Shown here: one piece after another, positions 17,504-56,806 of the stretch
Position numbering within the stretch: the stretch's first letter is position 1
Layout of the letters: each line of letters begins with the position of its first letter
Assembly: GCF_002572525.1 (NCBI RefSeq)
Contig: NZ_PDBS01000001.1
Coordinates: 930,001-994,000, forward strand
DNA from: Natrinema sp. CBA1119
GTDB taxonomy: Archaea; Halobacteriota; Halobacteria; Halobacteriales; Natrialbaceae
Length of the DNA: 64,000 nt
Direction of reading: 5' to 3'
Translations under genes and position numbers: made by a program
The notes under the pieces: generated by a model
Databases searched by the model: none
Seen by the model: only the letters and a program-made list of their open reading frames with translations
Told to the model about the DNA's origin: nothing

Positions 17504-18028
17504 ATGTACGCCGTCGTCGGCTGTAGCGAGTGTTCGAACCTCTGGATTATCGAGGGGCGCTCCGACACGACCCAGTGTCCCCGCTGTGGCTCGCGGAAGG
17601 GCTACGAAAAGCGCAAGAAGTTCGTCGAGACCGACGACGCCGCCCACGCCCGCGACGTCCGGGCCTCGATGCTCGCGAACCGGCAGGGGGAGGGCGAGGC
17701 CTTCGCGAAACTCGACTCCTTCGCCGACCTCGAGGACGACGTGGCGGACGGCGTCGTCGACGACGAGGAGTACCTCGAGGGATCAGGACTGGATGTGGCG
17801 GAAGTCGAGGCGGCCGGCGACCGCGATCCGCGCGGGTCCACCCGCAGCGGCAGCAAGCAGGAGATCGTCAAGGGGGCGCTCGAGGAGCTCGACCGGCCGA
17901 CCGAGGCCGAGATCATCGCGTACGCGGGTGAGCGCGGCGTTTCGGCCGAGTACGTTCGAGAGGCGCTCGAGAAACTCGCGAGACGCGGAATCGTCAGCGA
18001 GAGCCGCGGTCAGTATCGCCTACTGTAG
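17504..18028 (+). CDS. DUF5817-type zinc ribbon / winged-helix protein
   Basis: 174 residues. The N terminus MYAVVGCSECSNLWII with CPRCGSRKGYEKRKKF is a zinc ribbon (two CxxC pairs). An acidic linker follows, and the last 55 residues (VKGALEELDRPTEAEIIAYA ... LEKLARRGIVSESRGQYRLL) form a winged helix. This architecture suggests a nucleic-acid-binding role, possibly in replication or transcription, but none is established. Start chosen at the ATG directly before the ribbon. Confidence 0.8.
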   Translation: MYAVVGCSECSNLWIIEGRSDTTQCPRCGSRKGYEKRKKFVETDDAAHARDVRASMLANRQGEGEAFAKLDSFADLEDDVADGVVDDEEYLEGSGLDVAEVEAAGDRDPRGSTRSGSKQEIVKGALEELDRPTEAEIIAYAGERGVSAEYVREALEKLARRGIVSESRGQYRLL

Positions 18029-18107
18029 ACACTCAGCGGCCGTTTGCCCGTCGTACACGCCGCAACCGTACCGCCACGGCTTTCCCCGTCCGGCGACGCA
18101 AGTCGGT

Positions 18108-18485
18108 ATGGCAGCGACGACCGGTCTCCAGGGGCGCATCATCGGGACAGGACTCCTGACTGCGATCGGGCTATTCGTCTACGGTACGGTCGTCAACGAA
18201 ACGATCGTCGGGGTCGACGCAACGGTTGCGACGACGTGGGTCTTCGCGGCGACGTTCGCCGTTCTCGCCGTCGCCCACGCGAGCGTCGGACGATACGATC
18301 TCACCCTCGGGCACGGGGGTGCCGCCGTCGGCTGGCTGCTCGTTCTGCTCGGGACGACGGGGATACAGATCGTCCTTGGACTGGTGTTACTCGGTCTATC
18401 CGGGTGCTACATCGCGATCAGGACGTTTCGAGACGGTCCGGACGAGGGCGACACCGAGACGGGTGCGACGCAGGATTCGGTATAG
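18108..18485 (+). CDS. Small four-helix membrane protein
   Basis: 125 residues with four hydrophobic helices (residues about 9-28, 41-60, 70-84 and 86-104) and a polar acidic tail. It has no recognised motif. It follows the zinc ribbon/winged-helix gene by 79 bp on the same strand. Confidence 0.6.
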   Translation: MAATTGLQGRIIGTGLLTAIGLFVYGTVVNETIVGVDATVATTWVFAATFAVLAVAHASVGRYDLTLGHGGAAVGWLLVLLGTTGIQIVLGLVLLGLSGCYIAIRTFRDGPDEGDTETGATQDSV

Positions 18486-18600
18486 TCGACGGCGAATGAG
18501 TGACTTCAGTACTCGAGCCCCGGCCGACTCCGTATTGGCTCGAGCGCTCTCGTTGACCCGTCCCCGCTCGAGCGCTCCGTTGATCCATCTCTCTCGAGCG

Positions 18601-19878
18601 CTATCGACCCAGGTCCTCGTGCGCGCTCGCGAGGTGCCGCGAGGCGAGCGCCGCCAGCAGTGAGAGTTCGCCGGCGAGCGCGGCGGCGGCGATGATCTCG
18701 GCGAGCGCGTCGGCGTTCGACCCCGCCGGATCGCCGCCACCCCGGAGGCCGAGGATGTCGAGCGCTTCGGCCTGGGTGGGTAGTTTCGTTCCCCCACCGA
18801 CGGTCCCGACCTCGAGGGAGGCCAGCGAGACGCTGGCGTAGAGATCCGTGGTGCCATCCTCGCGCTCGCGGGCGTCCATCGTGGTGATCGTGTTCGCGGC
18901 TTCGACGACCTGGGCCTCGTCCTGGCCGGTCGCGAGGAAGGCCGCGCCGACCACGTTGGCGGCGTGGGCGTTGAACCCCAGGCTGCCCGCTTTGGCGCTG
19001 CCGATCAGGTTCTTGCGGGTGTTTGCCTCGACGATGGCGTCCGCGGTCGTGTGGAGCCGCTCCTCGACGATTTCGCCGGGAACGACGACATCGGCGGTCA
19101 CGGAGCGGCCCCGGCCTTCGACGGCGTTGATGGCGGCGGGTTTCTTGTCCGAGCAGAGGTTTCCCGAGAGCGCGACGAGCGAGGCGGGCGTCTCGCTCTC
19201 GACGACTTCGCAGGCCTCGCCGGTGGCGATCGTGGCCATGTTCATTCCCATCGCGTCCTTGGTGTCGTAGGCAAAGCGCAGGAAGACCGAGTCGCCGACG
19301 ACGTAGGGCTCGATGTCGAGCAGTTCACCGTGGCTCGTCGTGGACTCGGCAGCCTCCCGGAGCACCTCGAAATTGGCCTCAACCCACTCGACGGTCTCGG
19401 CGGCCTCGGCGACGCCGGTCACGCGAAAGACCGGCGCTCGAGTCATGCCGTTTTTCGTGACGCGCGCGTCGGCCCCGCCGGCGGAGCGGATCACGCCCAG
19501 CCCGCGGTTGACCGACGCCAGCAGCGCGCCCTCGGTCGTCGCGAGCGGCAGGTAGTGTTCGCCGTCGGCCGCGCCGCCGTCGTTCGCAGAACTCCCCGAG
19601 TTCTGCGAGCTCGGTGAGGTTTCCTCACCGTTGACGACGACGGGACCCACGACGCCCATCGGCACCTGCGCCGCGCCGATCATGTTCTCGATGTTTGGGT
19701 CCGCCTGCTCGGCGGGGAACGCGTAATTCCCGATCGCCTCGAGTTCGGTTCCCGTCTCGCGTTCGATGAGCAATCGGCGCGCGTGAGCCGCGGTGTCGTA
19801 GTCAGCGTGGTCCTCGAGTTCGTGAATGCGAAGGTCGCCGTCGCGCACTCGCTCGGCGAGGTCCTCGGGATCGGTCAT
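18601..19878 (-). CDS. hmgA: HMG-CoA reductase, class I
   Basis: 425 residues; NADPH-dependent reduction of HMG-CoA to mevalonate for archaeal lipids, the target of statins. Motifs: IENMIGAAQVPMGVVGP, the nucleotide-binding YDTKDAMGMNMAT, GNLCSDKKPAA with the catalytic Lys, and VGTVGGGTKLPTQAEAL. The protein is about 20 residues longer than relatives as I remember them, because of an insert at residues 86-104 (SPSSQNSGSSAND) coded by two adjacent DNA palindromes (19585-19607 and 19612-19630). The catalytic residues are intact. Confidence 0.95.
   Translation of the reverse strand: MTDPEDLAERVRDGDLRIHELEDHADYDTAAHARRLLIERETGTELEAIGNYAFPAEQADPNIENMIGAAQVPMGVVGPVVVNGEETSPSSQNSGSSANDGGAADGEHYLPLATTEGALLASVNRGLGVIRSAGGADARVTKNGMTRAPVFRVTGVAEAAETVEWVEANFEVLREAAESTTSHGELLDIEPYVVGDSVFLRFAYDTKDAMGMNMATIATGEACEVVESETPASLVALSGNLCSDKKPAAINAVEGRGRSVTADVVVPGEIVEERLHTTADAIVEANTRKNLIGSAKAGSLGFNAHAANVVGAAFLATGQDEAQVVEAANTITTMDAREREDGTTDLYASVSLASLEVGTVGGGTKLPTQAEALDILGLRGGGDPAGSNADALAEIIAAAALAGELSLLAALASRHLASAHEDLGR
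19585..19630. repeat. Two palindromes inserted in frame within hmgA
   Basis: CGCAGAACT-CCCCG-AGTTCTGCG (19585-19607) and CGGTGAGG-TTT-CCTCACCG (19612-19630) are perfect inverted repeats placed four bases apart. Together they code for the extra Ser/Asn-rich loop of the reductase. They look like a small inserted element kept in frame. Confidence 0.8.
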
Positions 19879-22725: not shown

Positions 22726-22799
22726 GTCCGGGTTGGGGTAGTGGTTATCCTTCAGCCTTGTGGAGGCTGAGACGCGGGTTCGATTCTCGCACCCGGACC
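22726..22799 (+). tRNA. tRNA-His (GTG)
   Basis: Cloverleaf with acceptor GTCCGGG/CCCGGAC, anticodon stem CAGCC/GGCTG, loop TTGTGGA giving anticodon GTG, T-arm CGGGTTCGATTCTCG. C73 at 22799 fits tRNA-His, whose extra G-1 is not encoded here (T at 22725) and must be added after transcription. CCA is not encoded. Confidence 0.95.
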
Positions 22800-27648: not shown

Positions 27649-28132
27649 GCGTAGCGCCACGCAATCCGTTCTGATAAACTATGTGATATACCAGTTGCAG
27701 AAACCGCGACGCTGCACCGCACGGCGTGGATACTCGCTGCTCTCGGTGGGTCACGCTGCTCGAGAGATGAGGGGTCCTCGCTGCTCGCCTCGTCCGATTC
27801 GAATCCGTTCGCTGTCGAGTGTAGCCCTGATCTGAGCTCGAACAGTTCTATGTAGCGATTTCACGTCGCACCCCAATATCCGCGCGTTTTCTATCACGTC
27901 CGGCCTGACGAACAGATGAATCGAACTCACAGAAACGGTATATCGTCTCCCGAAGTTAACGTTCGGAAAGACTCGCGACGCTCGCGGGAACGGGGACAGC
28001 TCGGTTTCAGTCGAGTGCGAAAGCTACTCGAATGGAAATCGGATAGAATCGGGAGACCACCTCCCGGCAGTTGGACCACGCTCTGTGCGTTCCTGAACCC
28101 GTTTGTCGTCCGATCTAACGGAACGATCCACC
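27649..28132. other. Gene-free stretch left of the ATPase island
   Basis: 484 bp without a convincing gene. It contains several short GC hairpins with the sense GCTGCTCG and, at 27966-28077, a copy of the tRNA-Phe-derived repeat. Confidence 0.5.
27966..28077 (-). repeat. tRNA-Phe-derived repeat, left flank of ATPase
   Basis: Matches 29995-30125 in the same orientation with one internal deletion. It contains CGGGGACAGCTCGGTTTCAG, a piece of the tRNA-Phe anticodon arm, and GGAAATCGGATAGAATCGGG, and ends in CCACCTCCCGG, a piece of the tRNA-Phe acceptor/T-arm. The two copies bracket the ATPase gene as direct repeats. Confidence 0.7.
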
Positions 28133-29533
28133 TCACTCGGCGTCTGCACTCGGCACGATGTCGCAGGGCGTGAAGAGTGAAACGTCGTCACGGTTCGCAG
28201 CCGTCTGCTGCAAATCGTCGGAAAAGCCGGAGCGACAGAAACAACAGTAGTGCTCCTCGCGGTCGGTTCCGTTGGGGGGTGTCCACCGAACCCGTGACGC
28301 AGTCCGTTCGAGGTCAGCCAGATCCCCCTCGGTCATCTCTCTGCTGGTGTACTTGCACTCACCCGCCACGAGCGTTCCGTCACTTGCAAGCCCGACGACA
28401 TCGAGTTCGTGCTGCTGGTGCCACCAATAGCCGATCCCCTGATACGTGTTGGGAATCAGGGATGGAAGTGCGTTCTGGCAGACCTGCTCGAACATCGCCC
28501 CCATGTAGTCCGTAATAGTCGGCTCGATCAACTGCTCGTAGGCGTCCTCACCGAGCTGGGCGAGTTTTCCTTGCTGGCCGTAGACGTAGCGGAACCAGAA
28601 CCGGAACAGGGGCTCTTTCAGCCGGTAGCGACTCTTTCGGGTCGCGTTCGGGTCCGCGGTCACTGGAATGTCGCGTTCAACGAGTCGGAGCCGTCGGAGC
28701 TTCGAGAGATACGAACCAAGCGCGTTTGAGTCAGTGCCGGCGAAGTCAGCGATCTCGTTTGCTGCACGCTTGCCGGTCGCAATCGCCCGGAGGATCGTGT
28801 AGTACGTCTGCGGTTCACGAATCCCGAACTCCGTTCGCAACAGGAACTCGGGTTCGTTGTGGAGGACGCCGTGTTCCGAGAGAACGTGCGACTGGATGTT
28901 TTCGGCGAGCGAACGAGACGGAGTAAGTGCCTGGAGATAGTACGGTGTTCCCCCGAAGATACCCCAGGCCTGAATGACCGTATCTGGATCGTCGTCGGGA
29001 TAGAACTGCTGGGCATCCATCAAGTCGAGCGGTGGGAGGTCGATCGTCGCGGTCCGGCGGCCGTACAGCGGACTACCGCCGCTGAGGACTTTGTCTTCCA
29101 TGATACTGATCGACGAGCCGACCAGCACCAGCGTCATACTCGTCTCTTCGAGGTGCATATCCCAAACGCGCTGGATCTTCGAGGGAAGCGCGTCGTCCGA
29201 CTCGGCGAGATAGGGGAACTCGTCGAGGACGACCACCGCTTCCTCTCGACCCAGTGCCCGAAGTAAGGCTTCCCAGTCACGCTGTATGTCGTCCAAGATC
29301 GGAAACGTCTCGCTGGCAGTGTCGACGAAATTCGCAAGTTGTACGTCAGACGTCTCTTCCGCTGCCTGCCAGTAGACAGCATCCTGGCGGCCGCGGATCG
29401 CTTCACGGACGAGCGCACTCTTGCCGAGTCGTCGACGCCCGTAGATCACAACCAGTTCTGCGGTATCGTTCTCGAACCGCGATTTTAGCAGATCGAGTTC
29501 GTCGACGCGGTCGACGAAACGCGGAGGGGTCAT
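28133..29533 (-). CDS. Archaeal ATPase with DUF234 domain
   Basis: 466 residues. P-loop ATPase of the archaeal/MNS-STAND group: Walker A GRRRLGKS at 32-39, Walker B VVVLDEFPYL near 97-106, sensor VLVGSSISIME. A winged helix follows (EIADFAGTDSNALGSYLSKLRRL), then the C-terminal DUF234, a restriction-nuclease-like fold (YWWHQQHELDVVGLASDGTLVAGECKYT). Such genes are frequent in archaeal accessory DNA; roles in defence or stress are suspected, not proven. It lies between tRNA-Phe-derived direct repeats. Confidence 0.9.
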   Translation of the reverse strand: MTPPRFVDRVDELDLLKSRFENDTAELVVIYGRRRLGKSALVREAIRGRQDAVYWQAAEETSDVQLANFVDTASETFPILDDIQRDWEALLRALGREEAVVVLDEFPYLAESDDALPSKIQRVWDMHLEETSMTLVLVGSSISIMEDKVLSGGSPLYGRRTATIDLPPLDLMDAQQFYPDDDPDTVIQAWGIFGGTPYYLQALTPSRSLAENIQSHVLSEHGVLHNEPEFLLRTEFGIREPQTYYTILRAIATGKRAANEIADFAGTDSNALGSYLSKLRRLRLVERDIPVTADPNATRKSRYRLKEPLFRFWFRYVYGQQGKLAQLGEDAYEQLIEPTITDYMGAMFEQVCQNALPSLIPNTYQGIGYWWHQQHELDVVGLASDGTLVAGECKYTSREMTEGDLADLERTASRVRWTPPNGTDREEHYCCFCRSGFSDDLQQTAANRDDVSLFTPCDIVPSADAE

Positions 29534-29739: not shown

Positions 29740-30229
29740 TGCCACCTCCCGAATTTGAACCGAAACCAGACGCGCTCGTGGATCGAGAGAGGTACGCTCT
29801 CTCGTCATCAAGCGAAACCTTCGGTTTCGCGGACCTCGCGAATCGGAGATCCGCTCAGTCACGGAAGACGCCAAGCGTCTTCTGATCGACTTCGCTGTGC
29901 GGGACTGGTAGGGTTCACAATCTGCTCGGATAGATTGCTGCTGCTCGCGGAGTTGCTCGCAGCAGAAATGCCGCCTCCCGGATTGTGAACTTCCGAAAGA
30001 CTCGCTCCGCTCGTCTTTCGACTTCCCGCTCGCTACGCTCGCGGGAACGGGGACAGCTCGATCTTCAGTCGAGTGCGAATAGCACTCGAACGGAAATCGG
30101 ATAGAATCGGGATGCCGCCTCCCGGATTGTGAACTACGCCGGAGAACCTGCGCTTCGCGCAGAACCTCCGTCTAGTTCAAATCCGTTCGGATAGATTGCT
30201 GCTGCTCGCGGAGTTGCTCGCAGCAGAAA
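29740..30229 (-). repeat. Array of tRNA-Phe 3'-end copies and hairpins
   Basis: Downstream of tRNA-Phe (minus strand) three further copies of its T-arm plus 3' acceptor end occur at 30113-30134, 29969-29990 and 29740-29762 (last one with two mismatches). The 44 bp after the tRNA (TTTCTGCTGCGAGCAACTCC and on) recurs after the copy at 29969. An inverted T-arm copy TAGTTCAAATCC is at 30173-30184, and hairpins such as CTGCGCGAAGCGCAG lie in between. The remaining sequence 29534-29739 has no recognised gene. Confidence 0.8.
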
Positions 30230-30303
30230 TGCCGCCTCCCGGATTTGAACCGGGGACAGCTCGATCTTCAGTCGAGTGCTCTCCCAGTCTGAGCTAAGGC
30301 GGC
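30230..30303 (-). tRNA. tRNA-Phe (GAA)
   Basis: Acceptor GCCGCCT/AGGCGGC, D-arm GCTC/GAGC, anticodon stem CTCGA/TCGAG with loop CTGAAGA, T-arm CCCGGTTCAAATCCGGG, discriminator A. CCA not encoded. It is the intact member of the repeat array to its left. Confidence 0.96.
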
Positions 30304-31217: not shown

Positions 31218-31333
31218 TGGGCTCGGGCGGGTTCGAACCAAAGCAAGACGGTCGCTCACTTCGTTCGCGCTGCGACTTGCAGGGTTCGAACCGCCCTCGT
31301 ATACATTTCTGTAACTCACTGTCGTTCCAGAAA
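31218..31333 (-). repeat. tRNA-Val 3'-end copy with palindrome
   Basis: 31218-31240 repeats exactly the 23-nt 3' end of tRNA-Val (31334-31356). Between them, 31283-31297 (GGGTTCGAACCGCCC) is an inverted copy of the same T-arm, so 31218-31297 can fold as a long hairpin. The 3' flank of the tRNA begins TTTCTG as after tRNA-Phe. Confidence 0.8.
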
Positions 31334-31407
31334 TGGGCTCGGGCGGGTTCGAACCACCGATCTCGGCCTTGTAAAGGCCGCGTCATAACCAGCTAGACTA
31401 CGAGCCC
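31334..31407 (-). tRNA. tRNA-Val (TAC)
   Basis: Acceptor GGGCTCG/CGAGCCC, anticodon stem CGGCC/GGCCG with loop TTTACAA giving TAC, T-arm GGTGGTTCGAACCCGCC, discriminator A, no encoded CCA. Confidence 0.95.
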
Positions 31408-56590: not shown

Positions 56591-56700
56591 TGGGCCCTGA
56601 CGGATTCGTAACTACGCCGACGGCTCGCTTCGCTCGCCGTCGTCTCGTTCGAATCCACAGGAGTCATTCCGTGCCGCTCGCATCTGCTCGCAACACTCCA
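56591..56700 (-). repeat. tRNA-Met 3'-end copy with palindrome
   Basis: 56591-56608 repeats exactly 18 bases of the tRNA-Met 3' end (56701-56718). GTTCGAATCC at 56647-56656 is an inverted copy of the T-arm, and CGACGGC/GCCGTCG forms the inner hairpin around GCTTCGC. The arrangement parallels tRNA-Val and tRNA-Phe. Confidence 0.8.
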
Positions 56701-56806
56701 TGGGCCCTGACGGATTCGAACCATCGACCACTCGGTGTCTCACACGATCTCACGAGTCAGATTGTGTTATGAGCCGAGCGCTCTAACCAGACTGAGCTAA
56801 GGGCCC
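56701..56806 (-). tRNA. tRNA-Met (CAT, elongator) with intron
   Basis: Exons are 56806-56768 and 56736-56701; a 31-nt intron (56767-56737) interrupts the loop after position 37. Acceptor GGGCCCT/AGGGCCC, anticodon stem CTCGG/CCGAG, loop CTCATA-A, T-arm GATGGTTCGAATCCGTC. Intron ends ACACAATC and GATCGTGT can pair, giving a bulge-helix-bulge site. The 5' end overlaps the 3' end of the nuclease gene by 10 bp. Confidence 0.92.

Follow-up and report, generated by a model that had tools for sequence, protein, structure and literature searches.

Haloarchaeal tRNA genes seem to serve as docking sites for gene-free mobile elements. These elements are short units, located 3' of a tRNA gene, that carry a copy of the 3' end of that same tRNA. 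The family is widespread in haloarchaea and apparently undescribed, as our search of the open-access literature found no earlier description of such units. The mobile, tRNA-specific character of the units is well supported. They would account for a large, apparently unannotated part of the DNA located 3' of haloarchaeal tRNA genes.

The window analysed is a 64,000-nt stretch of the 5.06-Mb genome of Natrinema sp. CBA1119 (G000; other genomes and loci are designated by G and L numbers). It holds an archaeal rRNA operon and tRNA genes. Comparison of the window with Rfam 15 at gathering thresholds returned tRNA and rRNA only, and the units match no curated RNA family.

The tRNA-Phe locus

The host gene of the locus is tRNA-Phe(GAA) (30230-30303, minus strand; ARAGORN, and Rfam RF00005 with 65.5 bits), whose nt 53-73 form the repeated block. 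Three extra copies of the tRNA 3' end, at regular spacings, had been pointed out in the initial annotation, and both observations hold. The copies, which comprise the T-arm and the 3' acceptor strand, lie on the minus strand and end at 30113, 29969 and 29740, with spacings of 117 and 144 as claimed and a third one of 229. The first two each show 3 mismatches over 20 nt owing to one additional T-loop base, and the third differs from the tRNA-Phe end by 2 mismatches.

Unit 1 (117 bp, 30113-30229, minus strand like all features of this locus) consists of four parts: HP1 (TTTCTGCTGCGAGCAA..GCGAGCAGCAG, 30187-30229), defined by folding and of the same type as hairpins found 3' of other tRNAs; invT (CGGATTTGAAC, 30175-30185), the inverse complement of the tRNA-Phe T-loop and T-stem; an HP2 core of class B (TAGACGGAGGTTCTGCGC-GAA-GCGCAGGTTCTCCGGCGTA, 30135-30174), a hairpin closing on the copy; and the direct copy of nt 53-73 with its additional T-loop base (GTTCACAATCC.., 30113-30134). 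The unit corresponds to a 117-bp indel relative to G030, where the counterpart of unit 2 adjoins tRNA-Phe directly. A class B core is also present at tRNA-Ser(TGA) of the CBA1119 genome, and an identical core is found at tRNA-Phe in G008. The inverted partners GGATTTGAACTA and TAGTTCACAATCC that had been described around the CTGCGCGAAGCGCAG hairpin were found at tRNA-Phe as reported. Likewise, the 44 bp located 3' of the tRNA are found again behind the second copy, within a 66-nt repeat (97%), but the TTTCTG junction is restricted to the positions that follow tRNA-Phe and copy 2. Chance is excluded as the source of the arrangement, the mismatch counts over the 47 tRNAs of the genome being bimodal (see below). 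A 574-nt stretch at tRNA-Phe has a folding z-score of -8.6 relative to dinucleotide shuffles.

Unit 2 (144 bp, 29969-30112) is of a different type, called type II. It is composed of a linker, a copy of the tRNA-Phe anticodon arm (29 nt, 30048-30076, 100% identity), two hairpins and a 3'-end copy. In addition to its G030 counterpart, a similar unit is found in Halorubrum (L134). Unit 3 (229 bp, 29740-29968) has the HP1 and invT of unit 1, followed by an older, interrupted core and the 3'-end copy with 2 mismatches; its core class is found uninterrupted in G036 and G026. Inside its loop lies an unrelated dispersed repeat (29771-29890), with matches of 75-83% elsewhere in the genome. This repeat (..CTCTCTCGTGACTGAGCGGA..GCGAGGTCCGCGAAACC-hairpin-GCTTGATGACGAGAGAG..) is present at several sites, apparently often directly 3' of genes, and its CTGA and TGATGA motifs beside hairpins resemble a kink-turn or C/D-type structure.

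Farther downstream, past an ATPase gene, a decayed copy of the junction region between units 1 and 2 was detected (27935-28068, 98 bp at 91%). Of note, decayed or pseudo-tRNA-Phe sequences occur approximately 1-2 kb 3' of tRNA-Phe in two close relatives, namely at 27935-28068 of the window and at G008:C1:3919537-3919613. The ATPase_2/DUF234 gene (28133-29533, minus strand) sits between unit 3 and this decayed region, as if brought by a past insertion at tRNA-Phe.

Units in the CBA1119 genome

We collected the DNA located 3' of all 47 tRNA genes (RF00005) and compared it with the last 20 nt of each tRNA. For 18 of them, a copy of the tRNA's own end with 0-3 mismatches is present 82-160 nt downstream, and for the remaining ones the best downstream copy has at least 7 mismatches, yielding a bimodal distribution. 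The low-mismatch set has 19 cases, the nineteenth of which (L030) is a tandem tRNA and was left out of the 18. As a control, the ends of other tRNAs mostly gave 6-9 mismatches in the same downstream DNA. Decayed-looking units were identified by inspection at three more tRNAs (L027, L031 and L050).

The units share a common plan, in which the tRNA is followed by HP1, invT, a GAAGTCGCAGC-hairpin-GACCGTCTTC core (HP2) and the nt 53-73 copy. Their lengths range from 102 to 180 bp, within narrow limits, and every unit seen is on the same strand as its tRNA. Two more are found in the window, both on the minus strand: a 116-bp unit (31218-31333) after tRNA-Val(TAC) (31334-31407), with a copy identical over 20 nt and a match to our R1 model (see below) at 31230-31296 (E = 3.8e-19), and a 110-bp unit (56591-56700) after an intron-containing tRNA (56701-56806), the orthologous site of which is empty in G006 (L257). 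Conversely, tRNA-His (22727-22798, plus strand) is an empty site in CBA1119 and is filled in G006 (L292).

Boundaries, tRNA-matched arms and folding

In a set of 154 units, tRNA and copy are almost fully identical over nt 53-73, and their identity is at chance level from nt 74 onwards as well as at nt 50 and lower positions. These units were selected for having a copy, so that the identity inside the block is selected and its edges are not. invT, positioned where it matches the tRNA best, is complementary to approximately nt 53-64, and it follows its own host tRNA at the positions where tRNAs vary. At nt 57, 145 of the 154 units match their own tRNA versus 79 after shuffling, and at nt 60 the numbers are 134 versus 97; at nt 62, 63 and 64, they are 108, 87 and 75 versus 77, 60 and 43. 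Where tRNA and copy differ, invT matches the tRNA rather than the copy in a ratio of 38:5, the copy being free to drift and the placement of invT having itself relied on the tRNA sequence. In some units of several genera, the copy harbours an additional T-loop base (GTTCAnAATC), as observed at Phe, Lys, Ser, Thr, Ile and Pro tRNAs.

The mismatches in the helix formed by invT and the T-arm (nt 53-61) comprise 86 G.U and 18 A.C pairs, both types being about equally possible (binomial p of about 1e-11 when counting cells, which are not independent events). The excess of G.U over A.C indicates that a single strand of tRNA sense folds, as RNA or as single-stranded DNA, both of which fit the bias equally; it would thus be compatible with the tRNA-like RNA processing signals listed among the options of the initial annotation, and with single-stranded DNA to the same degree. 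The HP2 stem is supported by RNAalifold and by pair counts. Altogether, invT-HP2-T2 forms an imperfect palindrome with bulges and a strand-specific pairing bias.

Two known RNA motifs were considered for HP2 and rejected by inspection. The archaeal bulge-helix-bulge splicing motif needs 4 bp between the bulges, and the HP2 loops flank approximately 7-8 bp. The kink-turn consensus is not matched either.

Distribution across genomes

Some of the sequences behind R1, our covariance model of HP2, had been chosen by exact pattern, and therefore core conservation is overstated in A1; the survey of the 47 CBA1119 tRNAs is independent of R1. Of 246 genomes of the phylum, the model matches 53, which all belong to the 56 genomes taken from the same order, and it gave no match in the 190 sampled genomes outside Halobacteriales. 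Another sample, of 59 Halobacteriales genomes, yielded matches in 54 of them, with a maximum of 33 per genome, and none in the other 5. Depending on the E-value limit, 14-17 matches were obtained in CBA1119, and 19 of 21 relatives are matched. All 17 CBA1119 matches are located 3' of a tRNA, or of a tRNA end displaced by integrase-bearing elements. A small element copying tRNA ends, one of the options raised in the initial annotation, comes near to these findings, which extend it to a distinct, order-wide repeat class at many tRNAs, with arrays that decay distally. The element is not one that relatives mostly lack, nor are the copies explained by a single known att pair.

The core pattern has matches in many haloarchaeal species, and those that also harbour invT mostly have a tRNA just upstream and a copy of its end. 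Matches in alphaproteobacteria and other bacteria are devoid of a tRNA copy and were attributed to chance. We rejected a viral source: the core pattern has three matches in viral contigs, none of them after a tRNA, which were judged to be due to chance, and a distant search of phages returned nothing above 34% coverage. A plasmid source was rejected as well, as the sole haloarchaeal plasmid match follows tRNA-Gly on an 828-kb Natronorubrum replicon. The core hairpin (GGAAGTCGCAGC..GACCGTCTTCC) is also present away from tRNAs, at L065, L069, L084, L108, L132 and other haloarchaeal loci. In Halorubrum, it is often found 5' of GTGGGACTCAAAGGGGCAGTCG, and it possibly represents a related repeat class.

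Empty and filled sites

In 29 congeneric genomes, the tRNA-Phe gene is conserved at 99-100% identity over its length, yet a copy within range was found in only 13 of them; a weaker copy is present in G029 besides these 13, and several congeneric genomes have none. Empty and filled Phe flanks align over a gap of exactly one unit, as for G012 and G024 (gap of 123 bp, alignment 93% identical over 1277 bp). Further one-unit gaps at tRNA-Phe were found for G004/G029 (117 bp), G023/G021 (120 bp), G001/G028 (123 bp) and G030/CBA1119 (117 bp), and empty/filled pairs were identified at other tRNAs (L037/L257, L044/L292 and L055/L296). The units are exact insertions or deletions at the junction between the tRNA and its flank.

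Between CBA1119 and G006, 38 tRNA pairs were compared. The site is filled only in CBA1119 in 12 cases, only in G006 in 2 cases and in both genomes in 5 cases, a third 'only G006' call having been left out as a tandem tRNA. Turnover of the units is fast. Between species, identity is 94-95% for the Phe unit and 78-87% for the 300-bp upstream flank, and the downstream flanks cannot be aligned; for G024 and G028, identity is 95% inside the unit and 78% over the upstream 300 bp, with unalignable downstream flanks. Unit identity above flank identity argues for horizontal gain. At any single site, loss could account for the difference as well as gain, because recombination between the 21-bp direct repeats would also leave clean empty sites.

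Modules, arrays and stacked integrase elements

A near-identical core is found at Phe in G026 and at Val in G034 and G035, with arms and copy that fit each tRNA and unrelated HP1 hairpins. Similarly, CBA1119 and G008, which are 98% identical upstream, have core and copy in common and differ in HP1. Cores, HP1 hairpins and arms recombine as separate modules, which is not predicted by a simple cassette model.

Two or more copies within 900 nt are present in 50 of 258 contexts. In 23 of these arrays, the copy closest to the tRNA is better than its neighbour, and in 4 it is worse (p of about 3e-4). Better proximal copies could also reflect gene conversion from the tRNA.

Full-size integrative elements occupy the same tRNAs. 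At L328, a tRNA-Val locus of CBA1119, the tRNA is followed in order by a 3.3-kb element, a copy, a 6.9-kb element, a copy, a unit and a copy. At L327, an element of approximately 18 kb separates the unit from the tRNA (that of L009), and the tRNA repeat is limited to the last 13-15 nt. The elements of both loci contain ORFs with Pfam integrase domains, and the two units beyond them, which come in addition to the 18 counted above, are displaced by these elements to 10 and 18 kb from their tRNAs. Polar arrays and stacked integrase elements fit growth at the tRNA. The att identity of integrase elements at the same tRNAs covers either approximately 31-33 bp or 13-15 bp, as opposed to the 21 bp of the units. 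An 18.6-kb element at tRNA-Phe of G022 has a 33-bp att and no palindromic unit, and a proviral scar was discarded as the source of the units. At L284 of G022 (17782-18906), an integrase ORF begins in the tRNA 3' end in antisense (MPPPGFEPGT..), and its att site thus also encodes the integrase N-terminus.

Proposed mechanism and alternatives

The reading we favour, to which we give about an even chance, is that the units represent miniature, non-autonomous integrative cassettes that have tRNA 3' ends as their attachment sites and are moved in trans. A cassette would comprise about 80-160 bp plus the 21-bp block from the T-loop to the discriminator. It would enter at the T-loop/3' end of the tRNA gene, leaving a complete tRNA upstream and a displaced nt 53-73 copy downstream. 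Newer cassettes would enter beside the tRNA and push older ones outward, generating one-way arrays with distal decay. Integron attC sites are recognised as folded single strands. In the units, the palindrome and the strand-specific pairing suggest similar recognition, and the invT-HP2-T2 imperfect palindrome, folded in single-stranded form, would most likely be the recombination or recognition site. If so, a tRNA-based, possibly guided insertion route would exist beside those of integrons and casposons. The mover, supplied in trans, would most likely be a tRNA-targeting tyrosine recombinase, to which the common sites, the boundaries and the stacking all point; tRNA loops and 3' ends serve as sites for known archaeal integrases (PMC8371274).

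tRNA genes may further be integron-like platforms, at which a recombinase of the cell or of a mobile element would take up cassettes without genes at the T-loop, recognising a folded single strand whose inverted T-arm pairs with and so selects the target tRNA. We regard this reading as conceivable but doubtful; if true, it would represent a nucleic-acid-guided, tRNA-specific insertion system.

The bias for G.U over A.C, the conserved hairpins, the orientation common with the tRNA whenever a unit is seen and the near-universal presence in the order also speak for a host-beneficial structured RNA trailer, co-transcribed with the tRNA, in which HP1 and HP2, together with the second 3' end, would direct 3' processing, termination or a trailer small RNA, with spread by recombination and loss by deletion between the direct repeats. 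Such a role appears unlikely, since most tRNAs in each genome have no unit, orthologous tRNAs differ within a genus and 5 of the 59 genomes have no match; moreover, single-stranded DNA sites would give the same pairing bias. We consider it distinctly unlikely that the units arise by transposition, in which a Cas1/casposase-like enzyme or a single-stranded DNA transposase would insert HP1-invT-HP2 and generate a target-site duplication of approximately 21 bp (nt 53-73), and invT may guide insertion by pairing with the T-arm. The sharp nt 53-73 block is consistent with this route, and the A. boonei casposase targets the 3' end of tRNA-Pro, needs TCAAATC and generates duplications of 14-15 bp (PMC6614799). 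However, Cas1 is present in 20 and a Y1 transposase in 32 of the 59 Halobacteriales genomes, and G276, G280, G155, G016 and G006 have 10-33 units with neither of them. Conversely, G116, G148 and G020 have Y1 and zero units. The insert ends are devoid of terminal inverted repeats, and R1 does not match the Y1 loci of CBA1119 (L331-L335). IS200/605 Y1 transposases and Cas1, both missing from many unit-rich genomes, are therefore unlikely movers and were rejected.

Nested integration scars had also been proposed in the initial annotation. Of this option, the stacking holds and an origin from ordinary proviruses does not, as full-size integrase elements at the same tRNAs end without a palindromic unit. 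An origin of the units as nested scars, left by ordinary integrative elements or proviruses of which only the att ends persist, is already disfavoured and seems very improbable: the same tRNAs do host such elements, and in Haloquadratum prophages are known to be marked by partial tRNA copies (PMC3119063), but the unit interior is conserved across tRNAs, genera and families within narrow size limits, and the intact elements examined lack HP1 and HP2 at their ends. Even less credible is local tandem duplication with gene conversion and no mobile element. It would agree with the periodic units and the repeated HP1 at Phe, as well as with the frequent repeat-mediated deletions reported in haloarchaea (PMC3119063), but it leaves unexplained invT, the presence of the same core at different tRNAs and the cross-species identity above that of the flanks.

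Relation to known systems

Compared with known small non-autonomous mobile elements, the specificity for tRNA ends and the tRNA-matched arms are new. PATE, MITE and SMR elements have been described in Haloquadratum (PMC3119063). Like PATEs and SMRs, the units are short, transposase-free mobile repeats of haloarchaea, and they share with PATEs near-terminal palindromes (HP1 and HP2), a size too short for a transposase and the lack of terminal inverted repeats. Unlike PATEs and SMRs, they are found at tRNA 3' ends only, with a 21-bp target copy and arms fitted to each tRNA. PATEs cause no target duplication, whereas nt 53-73 flank every unit as a direct repeat. The PATE palindromes are related to IS605-type ends, and no link of the units to IS605 ends or Y1 genes was found.

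With tRNA-targeting tyrosine-recombinase elements (PMC8371274), the units share the use of the tRNA 3' part as att, with identity over that part, restoration of an intact tRNA, precise junctions, tandem stacking and the same tRNAs. They differ in being gene-free and approximately 100-180 bp long, which is too short for an integrase, and in having an internal inverted T-arm and the nt 53-73 block. Family 2 casposons (PMC6614799) likewise use tRNA 3' ends for insertion, which generates a duplication, and their target TCAAATC lies within the T-loop, but they are large, encode Cas1 and have TIRs and 14-15 bp duplications, and many genomes that carry units have no Cas1. Integrons have been described in archaea (PMC9668308). 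Like integron cassettes with attC, the units are small and non-autonomous, have a single orientation and form polar arrays; their imperfect palindrome, whose structure is more conserved than its sequence, may be attC-like. Unlike integron cassettes, they contain no ORF, and their site is the tRNA T-loop GTTCRAATC instead of GTTRRRY.

The precise empty and filled sites and the tRNA-matched arms make the units a clean comparative system for mobile DNA that specialises on tRNA genes. Because of their additional 3'-end copies, tRNA pseudogenes, att sites and the limits of genomic islands can be misannotated.
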